Of a DNA stretch of 64,000 bases, positions 51,209 to 63,479 are shown piece after piece. Source of the DNA: Gemmatimonadota bacterium (GTDB lineage Bacteria; Gemmatimonadota; Gemmatimonadetes; Gemmatimonadales; GWC2-71-9); the NCBI GenBank assembly GCA_003169895.1, contig PNAE01000008.1, positions 89,751 to 153,750 of the forward strand, read 5' to 3'. The number at the start of each line of letters is the position of its first letter. Within the stretch, counting starts at the first letter, position 1. Made by a program: the position numbers and the translations under genes. Below the pieces are notes generated by a model, which ran no database searches, was not told the origin of the DNA, and saw only the letters and a program-made list of their open reading frames with translations.

Positions 51209-51370
51209 TCCTGTCATTACCTCAGTACCGTATGGCCCTGCCTACGCGTCGAAGGAACCGAACGAGACCGCTTCGTGGAGAAGGTTCCTTGCGGCTTCCG
51301 CTCGGTTAGCATCATGAGGGGTTAGTAGACAGTGCAGACCATTCTGCCCTCCCCCCCCCCCTCGGCGGCA

Positions 51371-51420
51371 GTCGGGTCACTTGCGCTTGCGGCAACGGCA
51401 AATCGGTCGCGAGCCTAGGT
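51371..51420 (+). repeat. dispersed repeat A copy 1
   Basis: gtcgggtcacttgcgcttgcggcaacggcaaatcggtcg, near-identical to 62706. Confidence 0.85.
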
Positions 51421-51552
51421 TCGGAGGGGGGTGGTTACGCTTGGGGCAACGATTATCCATCGGCGCCCAGTGTCGGGAATCGAACACGGCTTTGGGAAAG
51501 TGCGCGCTCAGCTTTGCGCGAATCCGCGTCGAGACGTAATCTTGGCGAACCC

Positions 51553-51587
51553 GTGCGCGGCCGCGGCAGAAGCGCAGGGCGTTGGGC
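51553..51587 (+). other. attC-like right half, repeat B copy 1
   Basis: gtgcgcggccgcggcagaagcgcagggcGTTGGGC; ends in GTTRRRY. Confidence 0.5.
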
Positions 51588-53796: not shown

Positions 53797-54465
53797 CTAC
53801 GGCCTGCTCATTGTGAACGTCCCTGAGCCGAGGAAGGAACCGGTCCCGTCCTGGAACTCGCAAGAGCCGTTGAAACTGGTAGGGCCGTTCGACGGGACGA
53901 CTCGCCCGGTGAACTCACTGCCGTCGGTCGCAACATTGTTGGTGTTGCAGATGCGAATTTGCCCGATCGGCGTGGTGAGGGCGTAGTCCATCTGGAAGTA
54001 GTAGAACCAAGAAGAGGACACGGGCAGGTTGGTGCTTAATCCGCCGACTGAAGGCGCCGAAACGAACGACTCGCCCCGGCCACCACTGCAGGCGATCGAC
54101 CCACCCGCGAAGCCGACAGCGAAGTTCCAGCTGTAGACGTGGTAGACCGTACTGTCATTGGAATTGAAATAGTTCTTCGTATACGCTGCGGTGGAGTCCA
54201 GTTCGGGAGGCGAGAGCGTCAACATGGCTCCCGAGAGATCACACTTGAGCGTGTCGGGAGAACCCGCCACATACAGCGGGACGGCGAACGAGGCGTCGTA
54301 CCGCCAGCTTCCTGCCATCGCGCTCACGCTCGCGGGCGGAGCACTCGGCGGAGGGGCCGGAGGTGGCAGTGACATGGCCTGGTCGCTGGAGCAGCTGGCT
54401 GCGAGCGTTACGAACACGAAGGCAAGAGCGGTCAGCCAACGGCGGCGATTCCACGCAATGAACAT
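53797..54465 (-). CDS. exported lipoprotein, family A (WRYDASF)
   Basis: FVFVTLAASCSSDQ lipobox; GSWRYDASFAVPLYVAGSPDTLKCDLSGAMLTLS. Confidence 0.7.
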   Translation of the reverse strand: MFIAWNRRRWLTALAFVFVTLAASCSSDQAMSLPPPAPPPSAPPASVSAMAGSWRYDASFAVPLYVAGSPDTLKCDLSGAMLTLSPPELDSTAAYTKNYFNSNDSTVYHVYSWNFAVGFAGGSIACSGGRGESFVSAPSVGGLSTNLPVSSSWFYYFQMDYALTTPIGQIRICNTNNVATDGSEFTGRVVPSNGPTSFNGSCEFQDGTGSFLGSGTFTMSRP

Positions 54466-54510
54466 GGCGCTCCTCCGGCCAAGAGTATGCAGGAACAAAA
54501 TGACTGCCCA

Positions 54511-54527
54511 GTCAAGCACGGATCAAG
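54511..54527 (-). promoter_or_regulatory. candidate SARP-type operator S5
   Basis: gtcaag (54511) and atcaag (54522), 11-bp spacing, 46 bp from ATG 54465. Confidence 0.5.
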
Positions 54528-54584
54528 AAGTTCGGTCCGCGCTCCCCGGCCCCATCGCCGAAGAGACGTCGTGTTCCGCTCAGG

Positions 54585-55133
54585 TTAGCACTGAGATGCA
54601 ATCCTCGTGGTTCGCGTAGCAGCCCACGCCCCACATCCTAGGTCGCCGGAGAAATGCGGTCCAACCTGCCGCGCCAGCTTGCTGGCTGCTGCCCGGTGCG
54701 CACGCTCTGTCGCGGCCGCCGATGTTGACGGCGAGAGCGGGCCGCCCGAGAAGCCGCCGCGACAATTGGGATGACTTTGGCAAACAACGAACTGAATGAG
54801 GAAGCCCAACGCAGCTACGGTGAACACCGTCGCCACGCTACCAAACGACTGGCGCTCGACGCGGGTAACCTGCGTCACCGGAAAGCCCATGAGAACCGGG
54901 GTGAGCGATCCTCGCACCAACCGCCCGACAGCCACGCCTACCAGTGAATCATGCTGAACATGCAGGTTGGTAAGCTGGACGACCCGCCCGGTCGTGAGCG
55001 TAATCCGGTAGCGATCGGTGGGCTTGCCGCGATCGAGCTTCGGGACGGGGCTGCTGTCCTGATGCCAGGCGTAGCAGCCGGTTGATTCCACGGCGAACAG
55101 TGCGAGCAGTGACAGAGCGATAATGCGGCGCAT
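54585..55133 (-). CDS. exported lipoprotein, family B copy 1
   Basis: MRRIIALSLLALFAVESTGCYAWHQD; RITLTTGRVVQLTNLHVQHDSLVG. Confidence 0.75.
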   Translation of the reverse strand: MRRIIALSLLALFAVESTGCYAWHQDSSPVPKLDRGKPTDRYRITLTTGRVVQLTNLHVQHDSLVGVAVGRLVRGSLTPVLMGFPVTQVTRVERQSFGSVATVFTVAALGFLIQFVVCQSHPNCRGGFSGGPLSPSTSAAATERAHRAAASKLARQVGPHFSGDLGCGAWAATRTTRIASQC

Positions 55134-55177
55134 ATGCCTTCCTCACGTTCGAGACGCCGGAAGTGTCGCCATCTGCC

Positions 55178-55194
55178 GTCAAGCGGGAGTCGAG
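55178..55194 (-). promoter_or_regulatory. candidate SARP-type operator S4
   Basis: gtcaag (55178) and gtcgag (55189), 11-bp spacing, 45 bp from ATG 55133. Confidence 0.55.
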
Positions 55195-55264
55195 CGCGCG
55201 GTGACCTCAGGGCACCGGCTGCCACAAGGCTCACGCCCTCTGTCGCGCCCGCCGATGTTGGCGG

Positions 55265-55645
55265 CTAGTACTCGTAGCAATGAGGGGAACAAGAGGATGA
55301 CGCAATTACCCAGGCAACGACGAGGCCCAGCAGCGCCACGGCCCCCACCGTGACGCCTGTGGCTCCGGCGTTGAGCGAGCGGCGCGCGACACGGGTCACC
55401 TGCGTCACCGGAAAGCCAGTTGGCGCCATCCCATATTCGACGGCCGCGCCAAGCAGTGAGTCATGTTGAACATGTAGGCTGGTGAGTTCGACGACCCGCC
55501 CGGTCGTGAGCGTGATCCGGTAATCGTCCGTGGACTTGGCGCTCTGGAGCGTCGGAACGGGCCTAGTGTCCTGGTGCCAGGCGTAGCAGCCGGTTGATTC
55601 CATCGAGAACAGCATCAGCAGCGACAGAGCGATGATGCGGCGCAT
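55265..55645 (-). CDS. exported lipoprotein, family B copy 2
   Basis: MRRIIALSLLMLFSMESTGCYAWHQD; RITLTTGRVVELTSLHVQHDSLLG; upstream DNA also matches copy 1. Confidence 0.78.
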   Translation of the reverse strand: MRRIIALSLLMLFSMESTGCYAWHQDTRPVPTLQSAKSTDDYRITLTTGRVVELTSLHVQHDSLLGAAVEYGMAPTGFPVTQVTRVARRSLNAGATGVTVGAVALLGLVVAWVIASSSCSPHCYEY

Positions 55646-55689
55646 ATGCCTTCCTCACGTTCGAGACGCCGGAAGTGTCAAAACCTGCC

Positions 55690-55706
55690 GTCAAGCGGGA
55701 GTCAAG
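55690..55706 (-). promoter_or_regulatory. candidate SARP-type operator S3
   Basis: gtcaag (55690) and gtcaag (55701), 11-bp spacing, 45 bp from ATG 55645. Confidence 0.6.
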
Positions 55707-55761
55707 TCGTCATCAGACTGGTGGAGCACGACGACTTCCGCCGCCGGGCAGTTCCGCGCGA

Positions 55762-55860
55762 TCATTTCGGCGGATCATGTGGTCGACCGCATACTGTTTG
55801 CCTGCAGACGCGGACCACCGCGGCCATCAGAGGCATCCCCGCAATCTTCGGTATGCGCAC
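55762..55860 (-). pseudogene. remnant of a family-A gene 5' end
   Basis: VRIPKIAGMPLMAAVVRVCRQT...*; DNA matches the start of the gene at 61733 (caatcttcg-n-gcgcacgat-agcctcc). Confidence 0.5.
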
Positions 55861-55915
55861 GATCAGCCTCCGATTCCATAGGTGATCAGCGGCTTTCGCA
55901 TCGACCCGATACCCG

Positions 55916-56575
55916 TCAAAAGGTGATGTGCAGTCCCACCACCGCTCCGTTCCTCCACGTCACCAGCGGTACCACGGTGGTCGACAGACCGGCCGGTAGT
56001 TGGTTCACCAGGTGCCACTGCGACCCGCGTGGCACCACGCTGCCGATGATGGCGCCGATCGCACCGAACGCCACCGCGGCGCCCACCCCGTATGCGGCCC
56101 GAACGGCGGAGCGCAACCCGGTAGCGTCGCCCACCACAGAGCATCCAGGCTCCGGTTGACAGTGAACTGGGATCAGCATGCCGAATGCGACCCCGGTTCC
56201 AGCCCCGATGATCGCGCCCGTGAGCACGTGGGGCCGGCGCGACGCGTGCTCGCCGCGGACCTCAAGGCTGTGAGTCGAGGCCGGCGCGATGTGGTACACC
56301 CGGCCGGGCGCCAGGGCGTCCGACACGGCGATGGTATCAGCCGCAATCGACGTGATCCGTCCCATGAGCCGAACGTCGGATTTGTTCTTTGACCACCGCA
56401 CCACCGCACCCGGAACCAGCAGATTCGCCTGCTGCGCCCTCAACGACGTGGCCGCGGCGACCAAGTACAGCCCGGCAACCAGCATCCTCTTTGTGTCCGG
56501 CCGCGCACGAGACATGGTCAGACTCCTCCGTAGGACGGTCATCAGGATCGTCGAAAGAGCGGTGATTCGGCGCAT
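55916..56575 (-). CDS. exported protein, family C copy 1 (glycine-zipper-like)
   Basis: VPGAVVRWSKNKSDVRLMGRITSIAADTIAVS; LTGAIIGAGTGVAFGM; alternative internal start MSRARPD with its own RBS. Confidence 0.7.
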   Translation of the reverse strand: MRRITALSTILMTVLRRSLTMSRARPDTKRMLVAGLYLVAAATSLRAQQANLLVPGAVVRWSKNKSDVRLMGRITSIAADTIAVSDALAPGRVYHIAPASTHSLEVRGEHASRRPHVLTGAIIGAGTGVAFGMLIPVHCQPEPGCSVVGDATGLRSAVRAAYGVGAAVAFGAIGAIIGSVVPRGSQWHLVNQLPAGLSTTVVPLVTWRNGAVVGLHITF

Positions 56576-56619
56576 ACGCTCTCCTCGGGTTCAGGACGCC
56601 GGAAGGATCGCGGGCGGAA

Positions 56620-56636
56620 GTCAAGCCGGAGTCAAG
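56620..56636 (-). promoter_or_regulatory. candidate SARP-type operator S2
   Basis: gtcaag (56620) and gtcaag (56631), 11-bp spacing, 45 bp from ATG 56575; in the divergent gap facing the kinase gene. Confidence 0.6.
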
Positions 56637-56695
56637 CGGACCGCGCTGGCTGGCCGTATACTATTCCCCGTAGTCTCCCTCTATTCAGGTCGTTG

Positions 56696-59518
56696 ATGCC
56701 CGACCTTCGGGACCGGCTGGCAGCCGCCTTGGCGCCGCGCTACATCGTGGACCGCGAGCTGGCCGCGGGCGGCATGGGTATGGTGTATCTCGGCCACGAC
56801 CCGACCCTCGGCCGCGAAGTCGCCATCAAGGTGCTGCCTCCGGAGCGCGCGACTGCGGTCGCGGTTGAACGGTTTCTTCGTGAAGCCCGGCTGCTCGCGC
56901 AGCTCGCCCACCCACACATCGTCACGATCCTCGAGGCACAGCGGTCGGGTGACCTCCTCTGGTTCGTGATGCCGCGCGTCGACGGTGACACACTGGCGAG
57001 CCGGATGGCGGCGGGGCCGATGCCGGCGAACGAGGTTCGCCGCCTCGGCATGGATCTGCTGAGTGCGCTCGAGCACGCGCACGCTCACGGTGTCATCCAC
57101 CGCGACATCAAGCCAGCCAATATCTTTCTGCACAGTGGTCGCGCCTTGCTGGCGGACTTCGGCGTGGCATTGCTTGATTCGTCGCAAGGCGAGGCGCTCA
57201 CGGCGACCGATCAGCGGGTGGGTACCATGCGGTACATGGCGCCGGAACAGTTCACCACTGGCGAGGTGACCGAACGTAGTGATCTGTACGCGCTCGGCGT
57301 GACCTTGTATGAGGCCGCGAGCGGTCACCGTTGGAAGTTGGTGGAGGCCGGCGATTCCCGCACCTGGCGAGCAGTGCCAAAGCGCCTCAGTCACGCCTTG
57401 CGCGGCGCGCTGCATGCTGACCCCGTCGGACGCTGGCCGACGGCCGAGGCGTTTCGGCATGAACTCGCGGCCGGCAGACGCCCCGGTGTGTCCGGGACCG
57501 TCCTCGCCGCCACCATGTGCGCATTGGTAATCCTCGCGTTCATTGCGGGACGCCGGGCCATAACGTCCCGGAATTCGGGCGGCCTCAATCCCGGACTGCT
57601 GAAGGCCGCGCTGGTGGTGCTGCCGTTCAGCGGCGGTGCGGACAGCCTGGGGTCACGGCTGGCCAGGTACACATATGATCAACTCGAAAACGCGCCGATC
57701 CCCTCCGGTGTGTTGCCATGGATCCGCGTCAACGGGCTTGATGTCAGCGCGGCGTTGCGCATCGCACAGAATGTTGTCGCCGGCAGGATCATCGTTCACG
57801 GCGGCCAGGCCGATGCCTTGGAGCTACAGCTATATGACAGCGCCGGCCGGGGGACCGATCTGACCGTGGCGAGCAACGGAGGCGACGCCGCGGTCTGGGG
57901 GCGCGCGGTCGCAGACTCAATTGTCAGCCGTTCATTCCCGCTGGAATTGACCGAGTTTCGCCAGGTCGGGGCCTCTCCGAACGTCAAGGCGGAAGATGCG
58001 TATCGGGCGGGACAAGATCTGTTCCAACGCGGAGCGTGGCACGACGCCGAACGCAAGTTCAGTGACGCCGTACAATTTGACAGTTTGTTGTTCCGGGCGT
58101 CGTGGGGCAAACTCCTCGCTCGCCAATGGCAGCGATTGCCGTTTCAAGCGGACATGGCCCGACTCGCTGGACGCTTCCCTCCGCCGCTCGACGAATTGGC
58201 GCGGATACAGTTGGAGCCGGATATCGAGCGCCGAATCGCCAGATATGATTCGCTCGCTCAACAGTATCCCAATTACCCGACATTGCGCGAGATGCAGGCC
58301 AACGAGTTGTTCAGCCGCGGTCCGTTGGTTGGTCGGCCGCTGCGCGAAGGCATCGACTCATTTCGCAGCCTGGCGGAACACTTCCCCGTCCTCGACGAAC
58401 CGACCACCTATACCCAGACGGTGTGGGGTTCGGTGCGGCTCGGCGCCCGAGACCTGGCCACGGAGCAGTTCTCGCGGCGCAAGGCAAAGGCCCTCCCCGG
58501 AGATCCATGGACCGACATGCTCTGGCTGGCGATCAAGGGTCGTTTCCAGCGATGGCTGGCGGCGCCGGCGCGCGATTACATGCTCTGGAGGGCCGATACA
58601 TCAGTCATCGCAACGCTCCAGCAGGCGGTCCGACTCGGGCTCGAGGTCGATGACCCGCTGGATCAGGTGGCAATCGCTTCTGCGCTGGAGCGACGCCCGG
58701 GAACCACGGACTCGCTGAAAGCCAGCGCGCTCGCTGCCCAGGCAACGGCGTTGCTGCTGCTCGGGCAGCCGCTGGCTGCGCTGGCGCGGCTCGACAGCGG
58801 CGCCGCGCGAGTACGCGGCAATCGCGGTTACCAACTCCAGACCGCCGAGTGGCGGGTGCTGCTGCCATTATTGCCCGGCGCACCAATCGCGCTCGCGCCG
58901 GGCGAGAGCGACGCTGGACGGCGGACATTGCGCAAGGTTGCAGCGACCGACTCACTCTGGCCCCGCGCCGCATGGGCGCTGGTCGTCGACGCAGTCGAGC
59001 GACACCATGATCGCGAACGCGACAGTCTCTTGTCGCTGCTGCGCGCCCGGTCAGGCGCGCCCGGTGTCACCGATCTCTTGGCGTTTGCGGAGGCGATCGC
59101 ACTTGGCGAGGCTGGGAACCCCGACAGCGCGCTGGCGCTGTCGCGTCGAATCCATCGCATCCCGAATGAGGCCGAGGCGAGCGTGCGCGGCCCGTTCGTG
59201 CGCGCCCTGGTGTATCTCAATCGCGGCGCATGGCAGGTGAAGCGCGGCAACCGGAATGGCGCCGACTCGGAATGGGTCTGGCACGAGAATAACGATGTGC
59301 AGGGCTGGCCAAGCCGCGAGCCCGAGGAAGGGGAGCTGGATGCAGCGGTCTCGGCCATCGCCCGGCTGCTTCGCGCCGAAAACCTGCTCCAGCTCGACCG
59401 CGCGAAGGACGCGTGCGATTTCTTGCAGCGCGTGCGCACCCTCTGGACTGCCGCCGAACCATCGTTCAAACCACTGCAGACACGCGTCGCGGAAGGCTTG
59501 GAGCGATGCCGCGCCTGA
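56696..59518 (+). CDS. membrane-anchored Ser/Thr protein kinase with extracytoplasmic C-terminal repeat domain
   Basis: ELAAGGMGMVYLGHDPTLGREVAIKVL; HRDIKPANIFLH; DFGVAL; MAPEQ; single TM VLAATMCALVILAFIAG; TPR/TolB-like C-terminal region. Confidence 0.92.
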   Translation: MPDLRDRLAAALAPRYIVDRELAAGGMGMVYLGHDPTLGREVAIKVLPPERATAVAVERFLREARLLAQLAHPHIVTILEAQRSGDLLWFVMPRVDGDTLASRMAAGPMPANEVRRLGMDLLSALEHAHAHGVIHRDIKPANIFLHSGRALLADFGVALLDSSQGEALTATDQRVGTMRYMAPEQFTTGEVTERSDLYALGVTLYEAASGHRWKLVEAGDSRTWRAVPKRLSHALRGALHADPVGRWPTAEAFRHELAAGRRPGVSGTVLAATMCALVILAFIAGRRAITSRNSGGLNPGLLKAALVVLPFSGGADSLGSRLARYTYDQLENAPIPSGVLPWIRVNGLDVSAALRIAQNVVAGRIIVHGGQADALELQLYDSAGRGTDLTVASNGGDAAVWGRAVADSIVSRSFPLELTEFRQVGASPNVKAEDAYRAGQDLFQRGAWHDAERKFSDAVQFDSLLFRASWGKLLARQWQRLPFQADMARLAGRFPPPLDELARIQLEPDIERRIARYDSLAQQYPNYPTLREMQANELFSRGPLVGRPLREGIDSFRSLAEHFPVLDEPTTYTQTVWGSVRLGARDLATEQFSRRKAKALPGDPWTDMLWLAIKGRFQRWLAAPARDYMLWRADTSVIATLQQAVRLGLEVDDPLDQVAIASALERRPGTTDSLKASALAAQATALLLLGQPLAALARLDSGAARVRGNRGYQLQTAEWRVLLPLLPGAPIALAPGESDAGRRTLRKVAATDSLWPRAAWALVVDAVERHHDRERDSLLSLLRARSGAPGVTDLLAFAEAIALGEAGNPDSALALSRRIHRIPNEAEASVRGPFVRALVYLNRGAWQVKRGNRNGADSEWVWHENNDVQGWPSREPEEGELDAAVSAIARLLRAENLLQLDRAKDACDFLQRVRTLWTAAEPSFKPLQTRVAEGLERCRA

Positions 59519-61401
59519 TCGTGGCTCGCCTTCTCGGACCACCCGAGCTGACGATCGACGGGGCGCCGGCCGCGCCGGAATTGCTCTGGCGCAAGCACGT
59601 GGGACTCTGCCTGGTGCTGTGGTGCGCGCCGGAGCGACGCCGAACCCGTGACCAGTTGATCGGGCTGCTGTGGGGCGACAAGGATGACAAGGCCGCCCGG
59701 CACTCGCTCAATGAGGCGTTGCGTGTTGTGCGGCGTGCAGCAGGTGACGATGTGCTCGACACCAGTGGGGAGAGCGTTTGCTGGGCTGGGAAGCCGGATC
59801 TAGACACTGACCGCTTTGCGGCGCTCGAATCGGCAGATCCCGACGCCGCATGCGCGTTGATCGCCGGCCCGTTTTGCGACGGTTTCAGCATTCCTGAGAC
59901 ACCGGAGTTCGATCAGTGGCTTGAAGGCGAACGCGGTCGCTGGCGGCATCGCATGGTGACATTGCTTGTGCGAACGGCCTCATCGGCTGAGGATCGCGGC
60001 GACGCCGATCGAGCGGTGCACCTCGCTGAACGCTCGCTCGCGCTGGATCCTTACGCGGAACTCGCCGTGCAGGGCGCCCTGCGAGCCTACTCGCTCGTCG
60101 GTGACCGCGCGGCGGCGTTGGCGACTGGCGAGGCGTACAAGGCCCTTCTCGAGCGGGACCTCGGGATGTCGATCGATGAGCGGACGGCGGCGTTGATCGC
60201 GCGGATCGCGCGGGGACGCGGCCCGGTTCGCCCGCAGGGAATCGCCATGCCAGCGCAGCGGGTGCCGTTGATTGCTCGTGAGTCGGCATTGCGACACCTG
60301 CATGACACCTGGCGCAACGCGGCAGGCGCGAACCAGCCGGCGCTTCTGATCATCAACGGCCCCGGCGGCAGCGGTCGCTCGCGGCTGATCGAGGAATTCG
60401 CCGCTCGCGCCGTCCTCGGCGGCGCCACGACGATCACGGTCCGCGTGGTCGACGCGGACGGCAGCGATGAGAACGCCGTGTTGATGGGCCTCGCCAGATC
60501 TGGCTTGCAGCTGGCCGCTGGCGTCGCCGGAGCGCCGACTGAGGCGCTGGCGGCGTTCACCACGCGTTTTTCAGAATGGGCCGAACGGTTTCGCGTCCCG
60601 TCGGTGAGCGAAGTCATGCCACCGCGGGACGCCTTCATCGCCGTGGTGCGGGCGACGGCTGACGAACAACCGGTTGTCTTGGTGATCGACGACGCCGATC
60701 GCGCCCACCCCGAGGAACTGCGCTGGTTCGCCGCGCTTCTTCGCGCCATGTCCGGCCTGCCGATGACGATCGCACTGGCGATCAACGCCCAGACTGCCAA
60801 CATTGCCGTTGACGAACTGCGGCGAAGGGCGGGACGAGATATCGCTGGCGCGTCGTTGCTGCTCGAGCCGTTCCAGCTTCCGGAAATGGAGCAGCTCGTC
60901 GGCACAGCGCTGAGCAACTGGTCGGCCGAGGCCCGCGCCAGGTTGGCGCGCCGGCTTCAGGCAGAATCGGCCGGCATGCCAGCAGTCGCAGTCGACCTTC
61001 TGCACGCTGTGATGAAGGGCGTGGCGCTGAGCGGTGCGGCGCAATGGCCAGCCCCGGATCGGACGCTCGACGCAACGCTCCCGGTCCCGGTGCCCGATAC
61101 CCTTGCAGCCGCAATCCGGATCGCGTTTCGGCGGCTGACGGTAGAGGGGCAAGCGATGTTGCTCTCCGCGGCCCTGCTGGACGAGCCGTTCTCGGCCGAG
61201 CGTCTTGGGCGCGTGCTCGGCATCGCAGATCCGGTTCGCCGCGACGCCATGCTCGACGCGCTCGAATGGGAGCGGTGGATCGTCGCCGACGGTCGCGGCT
61301 ACTCGTTTCCGGCCCGGGTCAAGCGCCGCCTGATCGCGAGGGATATGATGACCCCGGGCCAGCGGCGGCGGCTGGAAAGCAGTATCGCCGCCTGTCCCTG
61401 A
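59506..61401 (+). CDS. SARP/AfsR-like regulator: N-terminal wHTH + BTAD + AAA/NTPase
   Basis: RLLGPPELTIDGAPAAPELLWRKHVGLCLVL...RDQLIGLLWGDKDDKAARHSLNEALRVVRR; BTAD LALDPYAELAVQGALRAYSLVGDRAAALATGEAYKALLERDLG; P-loop INGPGGSGRSRL; Walker B VVLVIDDADRAHPEEL; 13-nt overlap with the kinase gene. Confidence 0.85.
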   Translation: MPRLIVARLLGPPELTIDGAPAAPELLWRKHVGLCLVLWCAPERRRTRDQLIGLLWGDKDDKAARHSLNEALRVVRRAAGDDVLDTSGESVCWAGKPDLDTDRFAALESADPDAACALIAGPFCDGFSIPETPEFDQWLEGERGRWRHRMVTLLVRTASSAEDRGDADRAVHLAERSLALDPYAELAVQGALRAYSLVGDRAAALATGEAYKALLERDLGMSIDERTAALIARIARGRGPVRPQGIAMPAQRVPLIARESALRHLHDTWRNAAGANQPALLIINGPGGSGRSRLIEEFAARAVLGGATTITVRVVDADGSDENAVLMGLARSGLQLAAGVAGAPTEALAAFTTRFSEWAERFRVPSVSEVMPPRDAFIAVVRATADEQPVVLVIDDADRAHPEELRWFAALLRAMSGLPMTIALAINAQTANIAVDELRRRAGRDIAGASLLLEPFQLPEMEQLVGTALSNWSAEARARLARRLQAESAGMPAVAVDLLHAVMKGVALSGAAQWPAPDRTLDATLPVPVPDTLAAAIRIAFRRLTVEGQAMLLSAALLDEPFSAERLGRVLGIADPVRRDAMLDALEWERWIVADGRGYSFPARVKRRLIARDMMTPGQRRRLESSIAACP

Positions 61402-61407
61402 AACCGG

Positions 61408-61797
61408 TCACGTTTGTTTTCCCGCGCGGCAAGGTGCTCGAAGCGCAGTACGCTGCACCGTGCCACTGCTTAGGGTGCCAAGGAATATGAGGGCCAATCC
61501 CGAATTTTCCTTACTGATGTGCCCCGATAGCGTCAGGATACTGCCAACGATGCTGCATACGAGATTGTCCGGTGTGGCTCGGTAGCGCGGCACCGGGAAA
61601 GACGCATCGTATCGCCACCTGCCGAAGAGAGGGCTCTCCCCGAGGGGTGGGGACACGGGGTCGCTGCTACCGCAACGTGCGCTCGCCAGCGCGGCCGCCA
61701 TGGTGATGCCTGCAATCTTCGCGGTGCGCACGATTAGCCTCCTTGATATGACGCTTATGAGGATCGTCGACGGTCTCGCGCGAATAATGTGTCGCAT
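61408..61797 (-). pseudogene. truncated family-A lipoprotein paralog (functional start may be GTG 61733)
   Basis: RWRYDASFPVPRYRATPDNLVCSIVGSILTLSG matches the 53797-54465 product, then the similarity ends. Confidence 0.55.
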
Positions 61798-61841
61798 ACG
61801 CCCTCCTCCGGGTCAAGACGCCGCCGCGATCGCGGCTGGTC

Positions 61842-61858
61842 GTTCAGCGGCAGAGCGC
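61842..61858 (-). promoter_or_regulatory. decayed SARP-type operator S6
   Basis: gttcag...gagcgc at the equivalent 45-bp offset upstream of the truncated paralog. Confidence 0.3.
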
Positions 61859-61870
61859 GATCCACTACCA

Positions 61871-62419
61871 TCAAAATCTGACGCTGACTCCGAGCGCGGG
61901 CCCGTGACTCCACATCATCATCGGCCGTATCTGCACCGCACCAATGACCTGGCCCGGACGCAACGGTTTCCAGTTGTAGCCGGGGGTGACACACGCTCCG
62001 ATCACTGCTCCGACGACGCCGAACAGCCCGCCGAAGACCCCCGCTGCCTTACCGCGCGAGACCACGCAGAACTGGTCCGGCGAGCAGCCGCCGGCTAGCA
62101 CCCCCAGACCAACCCCGAACGCCGCGCCCGCGCCAAGGCCGATCAGCGCCCCCCGCCCACGGTCCCCCCGGGCGCCGCGCACCTCCAGCTCGGGATGCGC
62201 GGCGAGCGCCATCGTCACCGCGCTGGCACCCATGCTCACGCGGAGCGAGTCGCTCCGGATCCAGATGATCGTCCCCTCGTTGCTGTAGGAGTCGGAGCGG
62301 TCACGCGAGCGCACGATTGCACCCGGCCCGACCGGTGCAGTCACTTGCGCCCGCAATGGCGACACGTTTCCGAGCAGTGACAGGACCGCGAGCACCCACG
62401 GGCCACGATGGCGAGACAT
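61871..62419 (-). CDS. exported protein, family C copy 2 (glycine-zipper-like)
   Basis: VGPGAIVRSRDRSDSYSNEGTIIWIRSDSLRVS; GALIGLGAGAAFGVGLGVLAGG; parallels the 55916-56575 product. Confidence 0.72.
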   Translation of the reverse strand: MSRHRGPWVLAVLSLLGNVSPLRAQVTAPVGPGAIVRSRDRSDSYSNEGTIIWIRSDSLRVSMGASAVTMALAAHPELEVRGARGDRGRGALIGLGAGAAFGVGLGVLAGGCSPDQFCVVSRGKAAGVFGGLFGVVGAVIGACVTPGYNWKPLRPGQVIGAVQIRPMMMWSHGPALGVSVRF

Positions 62420-62462
62420 GACGCCTCCCAGTAAGAATTTCCACGAACGATGGCGGGCGGGA

Positions 62463-62479
62463 GTCAAGGGGGAGTCAAG
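62463..62479 (-). promoter_or_regulatory. candidate SARP-type operator S1
   Basis: gtcaag (62463) and gtcaag (62474); perfect ggagtcaag repeat at 11-bp spacing, 44 bp from ATG 62419. Confidence 0.6.
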
Positions 62480-62577: not shown

Positions 62578-62705
62578 GCATCCAGGCCCGAGCCAAGAGT
62601 CCGCCGCCGAAACACAAATCCAGCTCGCTCGACCGCCCCGGCTGAAATCGGGCCACGAATAACGGCGCTTGACATTGCTGCAATCGCAACCACCGCGAGG
62701 GGGGA

Positions 62706-62839
62706 GTCGGGTCACTTGCGCTTGCGGCAACGGTAAATCCGTCGGCCGCCTGGGCTCGGGTCGAGGTGGGGTGGGGACGGGACAACCGAGTACCTTTTAT
62801 GCTGTGCGCGGCCGCCGCAGAAGCGCGGAGTCGTTGCTG
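62706..62839 (+). other. attC-like element: repeat A copy 3 plus repeat B copy 2
   Basis: CACTTGCGCTTGCGGC (left) can pair with GCCGCAGAAGCGCGGAGTC (right); sits just upstream of a small lipoprotein gene; terminal GTTGCTG is not canonical. Confidence 0.4.
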
Positions 62840-63351: not shown

Positions 63352-63443
63352 GGCGGGCAGGGGTAACTGAGGAAGCGATACGCCGCGCATTGTAATCGGC
63401 ACGCCGTCCGGAGACAGAGCAGCAATGCAGTTGCTTGGCTACC

Positions 63444-63479
63444 GTGCGCGGCCGCCGCAGAAGCGCAGAGTCATTAGGC
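63444..63479 (+). other. attC-like right half, repeat B copy 3
   Basis: gtgcgcggccgccgcagaagcgcagagtcATTAGGC, near-identical to 51553 and 62804. Confidence 0.45.

Follow-up and report, generated by a model that had tools for sequence, protein, structure and literature searches.

The 64-kb stretch of Gemmatimonadota DNA analyzed here (64,000 nucleotides, hereafter the window) carries a gene for a transmembrane (TM) Ser/Thr kinase followed by a gene for a regulator of the Streptomyces antibiotic regulatory protein (SARP) type, and both are flanked by minus-strand genes for exported proteins that are preceded by direct repeats with an 11-bp period. We propose that these elements very probably represent a kinase-coupled, SARP-type activation system of Gemmatimonadota with exported proteins and lipoproteins as its regulon. 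The proposal is built on the family and fold of the regulator, the architecture of the promoters, their co-occurrence with the regulator, the classes of genes that follow them, and the operon coupling of kinase and regulator. A preliminary description of this DNA had read the locus as a SARP-type regulator and a kinase controlling exported lipoproteins in a non-actinobacterial genome, and this interpretation was largely right, the organism belonging to Gemmatimonadota and not to Actinomycetota.

Promoter architecture and its co-occurrence with the regulator

The architecture of the promoters emerged from 59 exact CTTGA-N6-CTTGA sites, gathered at kinase-SARP loci in relatives and by searches for the repeat alone, the -10 region not being used in choosing them. 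Outside the repeats, the only strongly conserved columns were an A at +28 (86%) and a T at +32 (93%), which reached 91% and 98%, respectively, at the 53 of the 59 sites having a ribosome-binding site and a start codon downstream. These two positions are the key bases of a NANNNT -10 box located 9 nt after the second heptamer. The resulting full promoter pattern, CTTGA-N6-CTTGA-N12-ANNNT, had 354 matches in 102 genomes of the home family, compared to 5 for the reversed pattern, which served as the control in our genome-wide pattern searches. In the same genomes, periods of 10 bp and 12 bp gave 5 and 19 matches, displacement of the -10 box by 2 nt gave 15, and a 22-bp period gave 6, one of them a triple 11-bp array, so that the 22-bp variant is rejected for this system. 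These promoters follow the rule of SARP operators, i.e., 11-bp repeats in place of the -35 element with a -10 box nearby, while other periods and other -10 positions stay at background. Moreover, the identical repeat and -10 register precedes unrelated genes across dozens of genera. Judged by this architecture, the repeat together with its -10 box is a predicted SARP promoter, as the preliminary description had supposed for the operators of the window.

A variant site, CTTGARATCCG-CTTGA, is dominant in one genus (G040, G042, and G043-G048; e.g., loci L180, L181, L187, and L190), in which many targets are RCC1-repeat or Kelch-like lipoproteins. Arrays of three half-sites were also seen directly after the SARP gene, in L088:10114-10142 (CTTGACG three times at 11 bp) and in L092; such triple arrays are known for some Streptomyces SARP operators.

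The promoter and the regulator occur together across the phylum. In a survey of 298 genomes, in which a close SARP homologue was defined by a best E value below 1e-50, sites were found outside the home family in 10/10 genomes with a close SARP (42 sites) and in 20/223 without (Fisher 3e-10), these 20 genomes holding 24 sites compared to 14 for the reversed pattern. The frequency of the repeat in genomes lacking the regulator, to which the preliminary description had drawn attention, was thus looked at directly. Inside the home family, the corresponding figures were 43/44 with and 9/21 without a close SARP (Fisher 8e-7). Because the genomes are related to one another, the Fisher values suggest more independent events than there are, and the repetition of the association in separate families (f1, f3, f7, and f9) is the stronger point. 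In addition, 17 of 71 loci have a full promoter-type site within 200 bp at the SARP 3' end, for 0.35 expected.

In the 3.42-Mb source genome, a search with the 18-mer pattern chosen for the repeat, CTTGACTNNNNCTTGACT, and 2 mismatches allowed returned 8 matches, 5 of which fall within the 8-kb stretch of the window sites S1 to S5. The sixth, at C8:749590, is perfect and lies upstream of an exported lipoprotein gene related by sequence to the S3 target. Two loose matches, at C8:511909 and C8:1066080, are inside transaldolase-like and ferredoxin-GGDEF genes, respectively, and were discarded as chance. The repeat plus -10 pattern with 1 mismatch gave 11 matches in this genome and 0 when reversed, namely, S1 to S5, C8:749590, C8:1073287, C8:667630, which precedes another candidate gene start, and three (L306-L308) that were rejected, being located in open frames. 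The self-contained island of the preliminary description is too narrow a view, since the genome has further promoter-like sites outside this locus, including one that precedes a second BTAD regulator, and many sites in relatives are away from the SARP locus. This site before the second regulator (C8:1073287-1073319; L305 and L204) is of the promoter type, CTTGACAATGCGTTGACG, with one mismatch and a -10 box TACCGT, and stands ~50 nt upstream of the regulator start (open frame 1069938-1073304, minus strand), an arrangement pointing to a possible cascade or autoregulation.

The regulator, its kinase, and the exported regulon

The regulator has the layout that defines the SARP family, an OmpR-type winged helix followed by an all-helical BTA domain, and the NOD after the BTA domain that marks the AfsR subfamily (Table 1). 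Pfam matched BTAD at 7e-10, over the cut-off, and AAA_16 at 2e-14 (aa 255-416), and a profile of 20 relatives run against the PDB retrieved EmbR (2fez, 1e-12, positions 6-252) and AfsR (8k60/8jke, 4e-9, positions 6-307). In the AlphaFold2 (AF2) model (mean confidence score, pLDDT, 90.6), the BTAD is followed by NTPase, helical, and winged segments, and the best solved neighbours found by Foldseek included AfsR in a transcription initiation complex and EmbR (8k60, 8hvr, and 2fez), which bears out the SARP assignment of the preliminary description. A C-terminal tetratricopeptide repeat (TPR) region was seen neither as a Pfam match nor as a TPR array in the model, the protein ending after the NOD. 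Among 31 relatives, no other 15-residue stretch is conserved as strongly as AARHSLNEALRVVRR, the core of the predicted recognition helix, which has a mean identity of 0.84 compared to 0.59 for the whole protein. We infer that the regulator binds the 11-bp repeats and activates transcription, to which the co-occurrence described above lends indirect support.

The kinase and regulator open reading frames overlap by exactly 13 nt, as first described. The catalytic motifs HRDIKPAN and DFG of the kinase are intact (PF00069, 3e-41), and Foldseek matched its model to PknB, PknA, and PknG. A single TM helix is followed by an extracytoplasmic region of ~650 aa, modelled as a small alpha/beta domain and an alpha-solenoid/TPR-like part (AF2, pLDDT 85.5), and an alignment of 30 orthologues showed the TM helix and ectodomain to be conserved phylum-wide. 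The AfsK-like label given earlier to this protein holds for the catalytic domain and not for the rest; the identity as AfsK (NCBIfam NF053615) was rejected at 87.5 bits for a cut-off of 1300, the catalytic domain alone aligning. Among relatives, the kinase gene is directly upstream of the SARP gene and coupled to it in 41/71 loci, most commonly with a 4-nt overlap, and is divergent in 6/71. Co-transcription of the two genes is thus widespread, though not universal, and this operon coupling suggests control of the SARP by the kinase.

The five window sites are all on the minus strand, have a half-site period of exactly 11 bp, and are of the CTTGACT-N4-CTTGACT type. The preliminary description had placed these repeats and their period correctly, with coordinates about one base off, and its constant spacing of 44 to 46 bp to the start codon corresponds to the 42 to 44 nt measured here, counted differently. 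The weaker sites are S4, with a CTCGACT half-site, and S5, with a CTTGATC half-site and a TTTTGT -10 box. Signal peptides or lipoboxes are present in the products of all five targets. The make-up of the S1 target was seen again in the survey of site-bearing genes of relatives, one product of which (L066) matches the YMGG glycine-zipper family with a score below the curated cut-off.

Table 1. Features of the kinase-SARP locus and its putative promoters; positions are in window numbering, and distances are those between the 18-mer end and the ATG
Feature	Position	Strand	Description
Ser/Thr kinase	56696-59518	+	Transmembrane; PknB-like catalytic domain aa 17-213 (~56744-57334), TM helix aa 265-283 (~57488-57544), then ectodomain
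SARP-type regulator	59506-61401	+	631 aa; winged helix-turn-helix (wHTH) aa 1-80, BTAD aa 113-234, NOD/STAND NTPase aa ~255-629
Predicted recognition helix	59686-59742	+	aa 61-79 in AF2 model; core aa 63-77
S1	62462-62479	minus	CTTGACTCCCCCTTGACT; 0 mismatches to the 18-mer; -10-like CATCGT 62447-62452; 42 nt to ATG
S1 target	61871-62419	minus	Exported protein; signal peptide, small beta domain, glycine-zipper-like segments
S2	56619-56636	minus	CTTGACTCCGGCTTGACT; 0 mismatches; -10-like GATCCT 56604-56609; 43 nt to ATG
S2 target	55916-56575	minus	Exported protein, make-up as S1 target
S3	55689-55706	minus	CTTGACTCCCGCTTGACG; 1 mismatch; -10-like GACACT 55674-55679; 43 nt to ATG
S3 target	55265-55645	minus	Lipoprotein-like; in a cluster of 8 with the C8:749590 target and site-bearing genes of other genomes
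S4	55177-55194	minus	CTCGACTCCCGCTTGACG; 2 mismatches, one in the core; -10-like GACACT 55162-55167; duplicate of S3; 43 nt to ATG
S4 target	54585-55133	minus	Paralogue of S3 target
S5	54510-54527	minus	CTTGATCCGTGCTTGACT; 2 mismatches, first half degenerate; -10-like TTTTGT 54495-54500; 44 nt to ATG
S5 target	53797-54465	minus	Lipoprotein, lipobox LAASC

The exported character of the regulon, proposed earlier from the window, extends to the relatives. By a home-made signal-peptide/lipobox heuristic, 81/127 sampled site-bearing genes pass as exported or lipoprotein genes, and in a same-locus comparison both classes are enriched, exported products accounting for 19/28 site-bearing genes versus 157/697 neighbours (p=8e-7) and lipoproteins for 12/28 versus 17/697 (p=3e-11). 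Small exported beta-domain/glycine-zipper proteins, as encoded downstream of S1 and S2, and the lipoprotein family of the S3 and C8:749590 targets recur among these products, along with Exo_endo_phos lipoproteins, RCC1-repeat lipoproteins, YdjM-type membrane proteins, epimerases, and alpha/beta hydrolases.

Elsewhere in the window, a shortened paralogue of the S5 lipoprotein gene (61408-61797, minus strand) has the gene head of S2 to S4, but its repeat, CGCTCTGCCGCTGAACG, has decayed and the site was apparently lost. Copies of spacer elements at 51355-51434 and 62690-62769 (ACTTGCGCTTGCGGCAACGG...) and at 51538-51584, 62789-62835, and 63429-63475 (GTGCGCGGCCGCCGCAGAAGCGC...) separate small single genes to either side of the kinase-SARP island and look like the recombination sites of a candidate gene-cassette array. 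An Rfam scan of the window found no RNA family.

Proposed mechanism and alternative readings

We propose a model in which the BTAD-NOD regulator would bind CTTGAC half-sites spaced at 11 bp, presumably as a dimer whose subunits lie side by side along the same DNA face. The repeats, with a weak -10 box, NANNNT, immediately downstream, would stand in for the -35 element, and because they occupy this place, the regulator would supply the missing -35 contact and recruit the housekeeping RNA polymerase, as AfsR does (PMC10936776), activating rather than repressing its targets. Mostly genes for exported proteins and lipoproteins would be turned on in this way, both near the regulator gene (S1 to S5) and at a distance (C8:749590). 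S2 lies in the divergent region between its target and the kinase-SARP operon, a placement by which it may possibly autoregulate the operon. The translationally coupled TM kinase most likely senses an extracytoplasmic cue and would phosphorylate the regulator or set its activity otherwise. A bolder version of this model, whose prospects we rate as slightly less than even, is a phylum-wide one-plus-one system in which the TM kinase, with its TPR-like external sensor, would directly control the NOD-SARP; this SARP would act by sigma adaptation at CTTGAC-N5-CTTGAC to remodel the surface through exported proteins and lipoproteins, and duplicated SARPs with slightly different half-site preferences would run parallel regulons.

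Several observations weigh against the proposed system, beginning with the window itself. S3 and S4 are inside a 269-nt duplication, 84% identical, and S2 has the same gene head as both, hence the five sites did not all arise independently. A search of the window with 3 mismatches gave 5 matches for 1.67 +/- 1.44 expected, a modest excess only. Taken alone, the window is therefore weak evidence for regulatory repeats, S2 to S4 being partly copies of one duplicated gene head. That all its repeats are mere copies of such a head, devoid of regulatory meaning, is nevertheless barely credible: S1, S5, and C8:749590 are outside the duplication, and the register found before unrelated genes, together with controls that fall to background, already refutes this explanation, unless the family-wide enrichment is an artefact. 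Hardly more credible is the reading of the site as an alternative-sigma-factor promoter rather than an activator operator, with TTGAC as its -35. TTGAC does resemble the sigma70 -35 hexamer, but the -10 box begins 20 nt after the first TTGACT and 9 nt after the second, neither of which is a sigma70 spacing, so that a sigma70 -35 is rejected, and the site requires a pair of half-sites with a strict period of 11 bp.

Other difficulties bear on which protein reads the promoters. Two fragmented metagenome-assembled genomes (MAGs) with the CTTGARATCCG variant, G048 (8 sites) and G040 (7 sites), have no close SARP in the assembly, G048 having no SARP match in its assembly even at 1e-10. The 99% complete G086 has 2 sites and no close SARP in the assembly. 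Conversely, G050 carries the SARP and no exact site, and the nearest orthologue (54% identical) is on a 6.8-kb contig without a site. The promoters might thus be real and read by another regulator, a BTAD paralogue or a member of another family, the adjacent SARP being a bystander or one of several readers. The two site flavours, CTTGACN and CTTGARA, and the near-perfect site of the second BTAD protein before its own gene would also fit this explanation, which we consider improbable in view of the co-occurrence across distant families (10/10 versus 20/223), the sites directly at the SARP 3' end, the geometry known from SARPs, and the strongly conserved recognition helix. Moreover, most of the exceptions are fragmented MAGs, and a system read by paralogous SARPs would remain of the same kind.

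How far the activity of the regulator is controlled, by nucleotide or by kinase, is where the proposed system meets its remaining difficulties. In the regulator and in its nearest relative (L072), Arg takes the place of the Walker A Lys (GGSGRSR, residues 285-295), most relatives keeping GxGKT/S; owing to this replacement, NTP control may be altered in this lineage and could be lost in the window copy. No kinase was found next door in 24/71 related SARP loci, about a third, and for AfsR, a precedent exists in which phosphorylation by AfsK raised activity just slightly and several kinases act on the protein (PMC10936776). The loci without a kinase and this precedent would suit an autonomous SARP, the coupled kinase having another target or the pair being co-transcribed merely as a joint response to envelope stress. 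We regard this as unlikely, although it is the alternative to be taken most seriously, given the tight coupling in a majority of loci and the phylum-wide conservation of the TM helix and ectodomain.

If the kinase-coupled SARP system is as proposed, a SARP protein design and its promoter grammar serve outside Actinobacteria to control exported proteins and lipoproteins, pointing to an activation mechanism that is ancient or was transferred and whose role is wider than antibiotic clusters. From the promoter pattern, hundreds of promoters can be predicted and put to the test in a phylum whose gene regulation is little known, and a natural protein resembling AfsR delta-TPR, with a kinase partner, would be useful for asking how a kinase affects a SARP. 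The one-plus-one system, if true, would correspond in function to two-component systems, with a eukaryote-like kinase and a SARP as its parts.

Comparison with known SARP systems

According to the literature, SARPs occur in actinobacteria alone and are linked to antibiotic clusters (PMC10972967). The relatives of the window regulator depart from this distribution: among its 80 best relatives in 85,000 species genomes, 79 had titles of Gemmatimonadota type, candidate lineages, or metagenomes and 0 had actinobacterium titles. A literature search of open-licence full text found no SARP or BTAD regulon described for Gemmatimonadota.

The closest counterpart is AfsR of Streptomyces coelicolor (wHTH-BTA-NOD-TPR), which the window regulator matches in domain order through the NOD, in profile, and in predicted fold. 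In published SARP promoters, the direct repeats are spaced at 11 or 22 bp and a distance of 8 bp separates the 3' repeat from the -10 box, which in afsS reads CACTGT (PMC10936776). The promoters described here likewise have 11-bp direct repeats with the 3' repeat 8 to 9 nt from a weak -10 box of the CACTGT type, and in both systems a Ser/Thr kinase gene adjoins. Unlike AfsR, the window regulator is without TPR and at 631 aa is near the AfsR delta-TPR construct (1-618), it has Arg for the Walker A Lys, its half-site is CTTGAC instead of the CGTT(T/C)ATCG-type afs box, and it belongs to Gemmatimonadota rather than Actinomycetota, with exported proteins and lipoproteins as targets in place of afsS or antibiotic control. 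The kinase resembles AfsK in its Ser/Thr catalytic domain and in its gene adjoining that of a large SARP, but differs by its single TM helix and its ~650-aa ectodomain of alpha/beta and TPR-like parts.

The small pathway SARPs bind heptamer direct repeats of 11-bp period that overlap the -35 region (PMC10972967). The operators of ActII-ORF4, DnrI, and RedD are of this kind and resemble those of the window in both respects (PMC10972967), whereas these proteins are cluster-situated antibiotic regulators without a NOD or a kinase partner, unlike the window pair. With EmbR of Mycobacterium tuberculosis, the window regulator has the wHTH-BTA fold (2fez) in common; the NOD replaces the FHA domain, no FHA phospho-reading domain being seen in the window regulator, and the targets differ. 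EmbR, a SARP domain joined to FHA and regulated by PknH, acts on envelope genes together with a transmembrane kinase.

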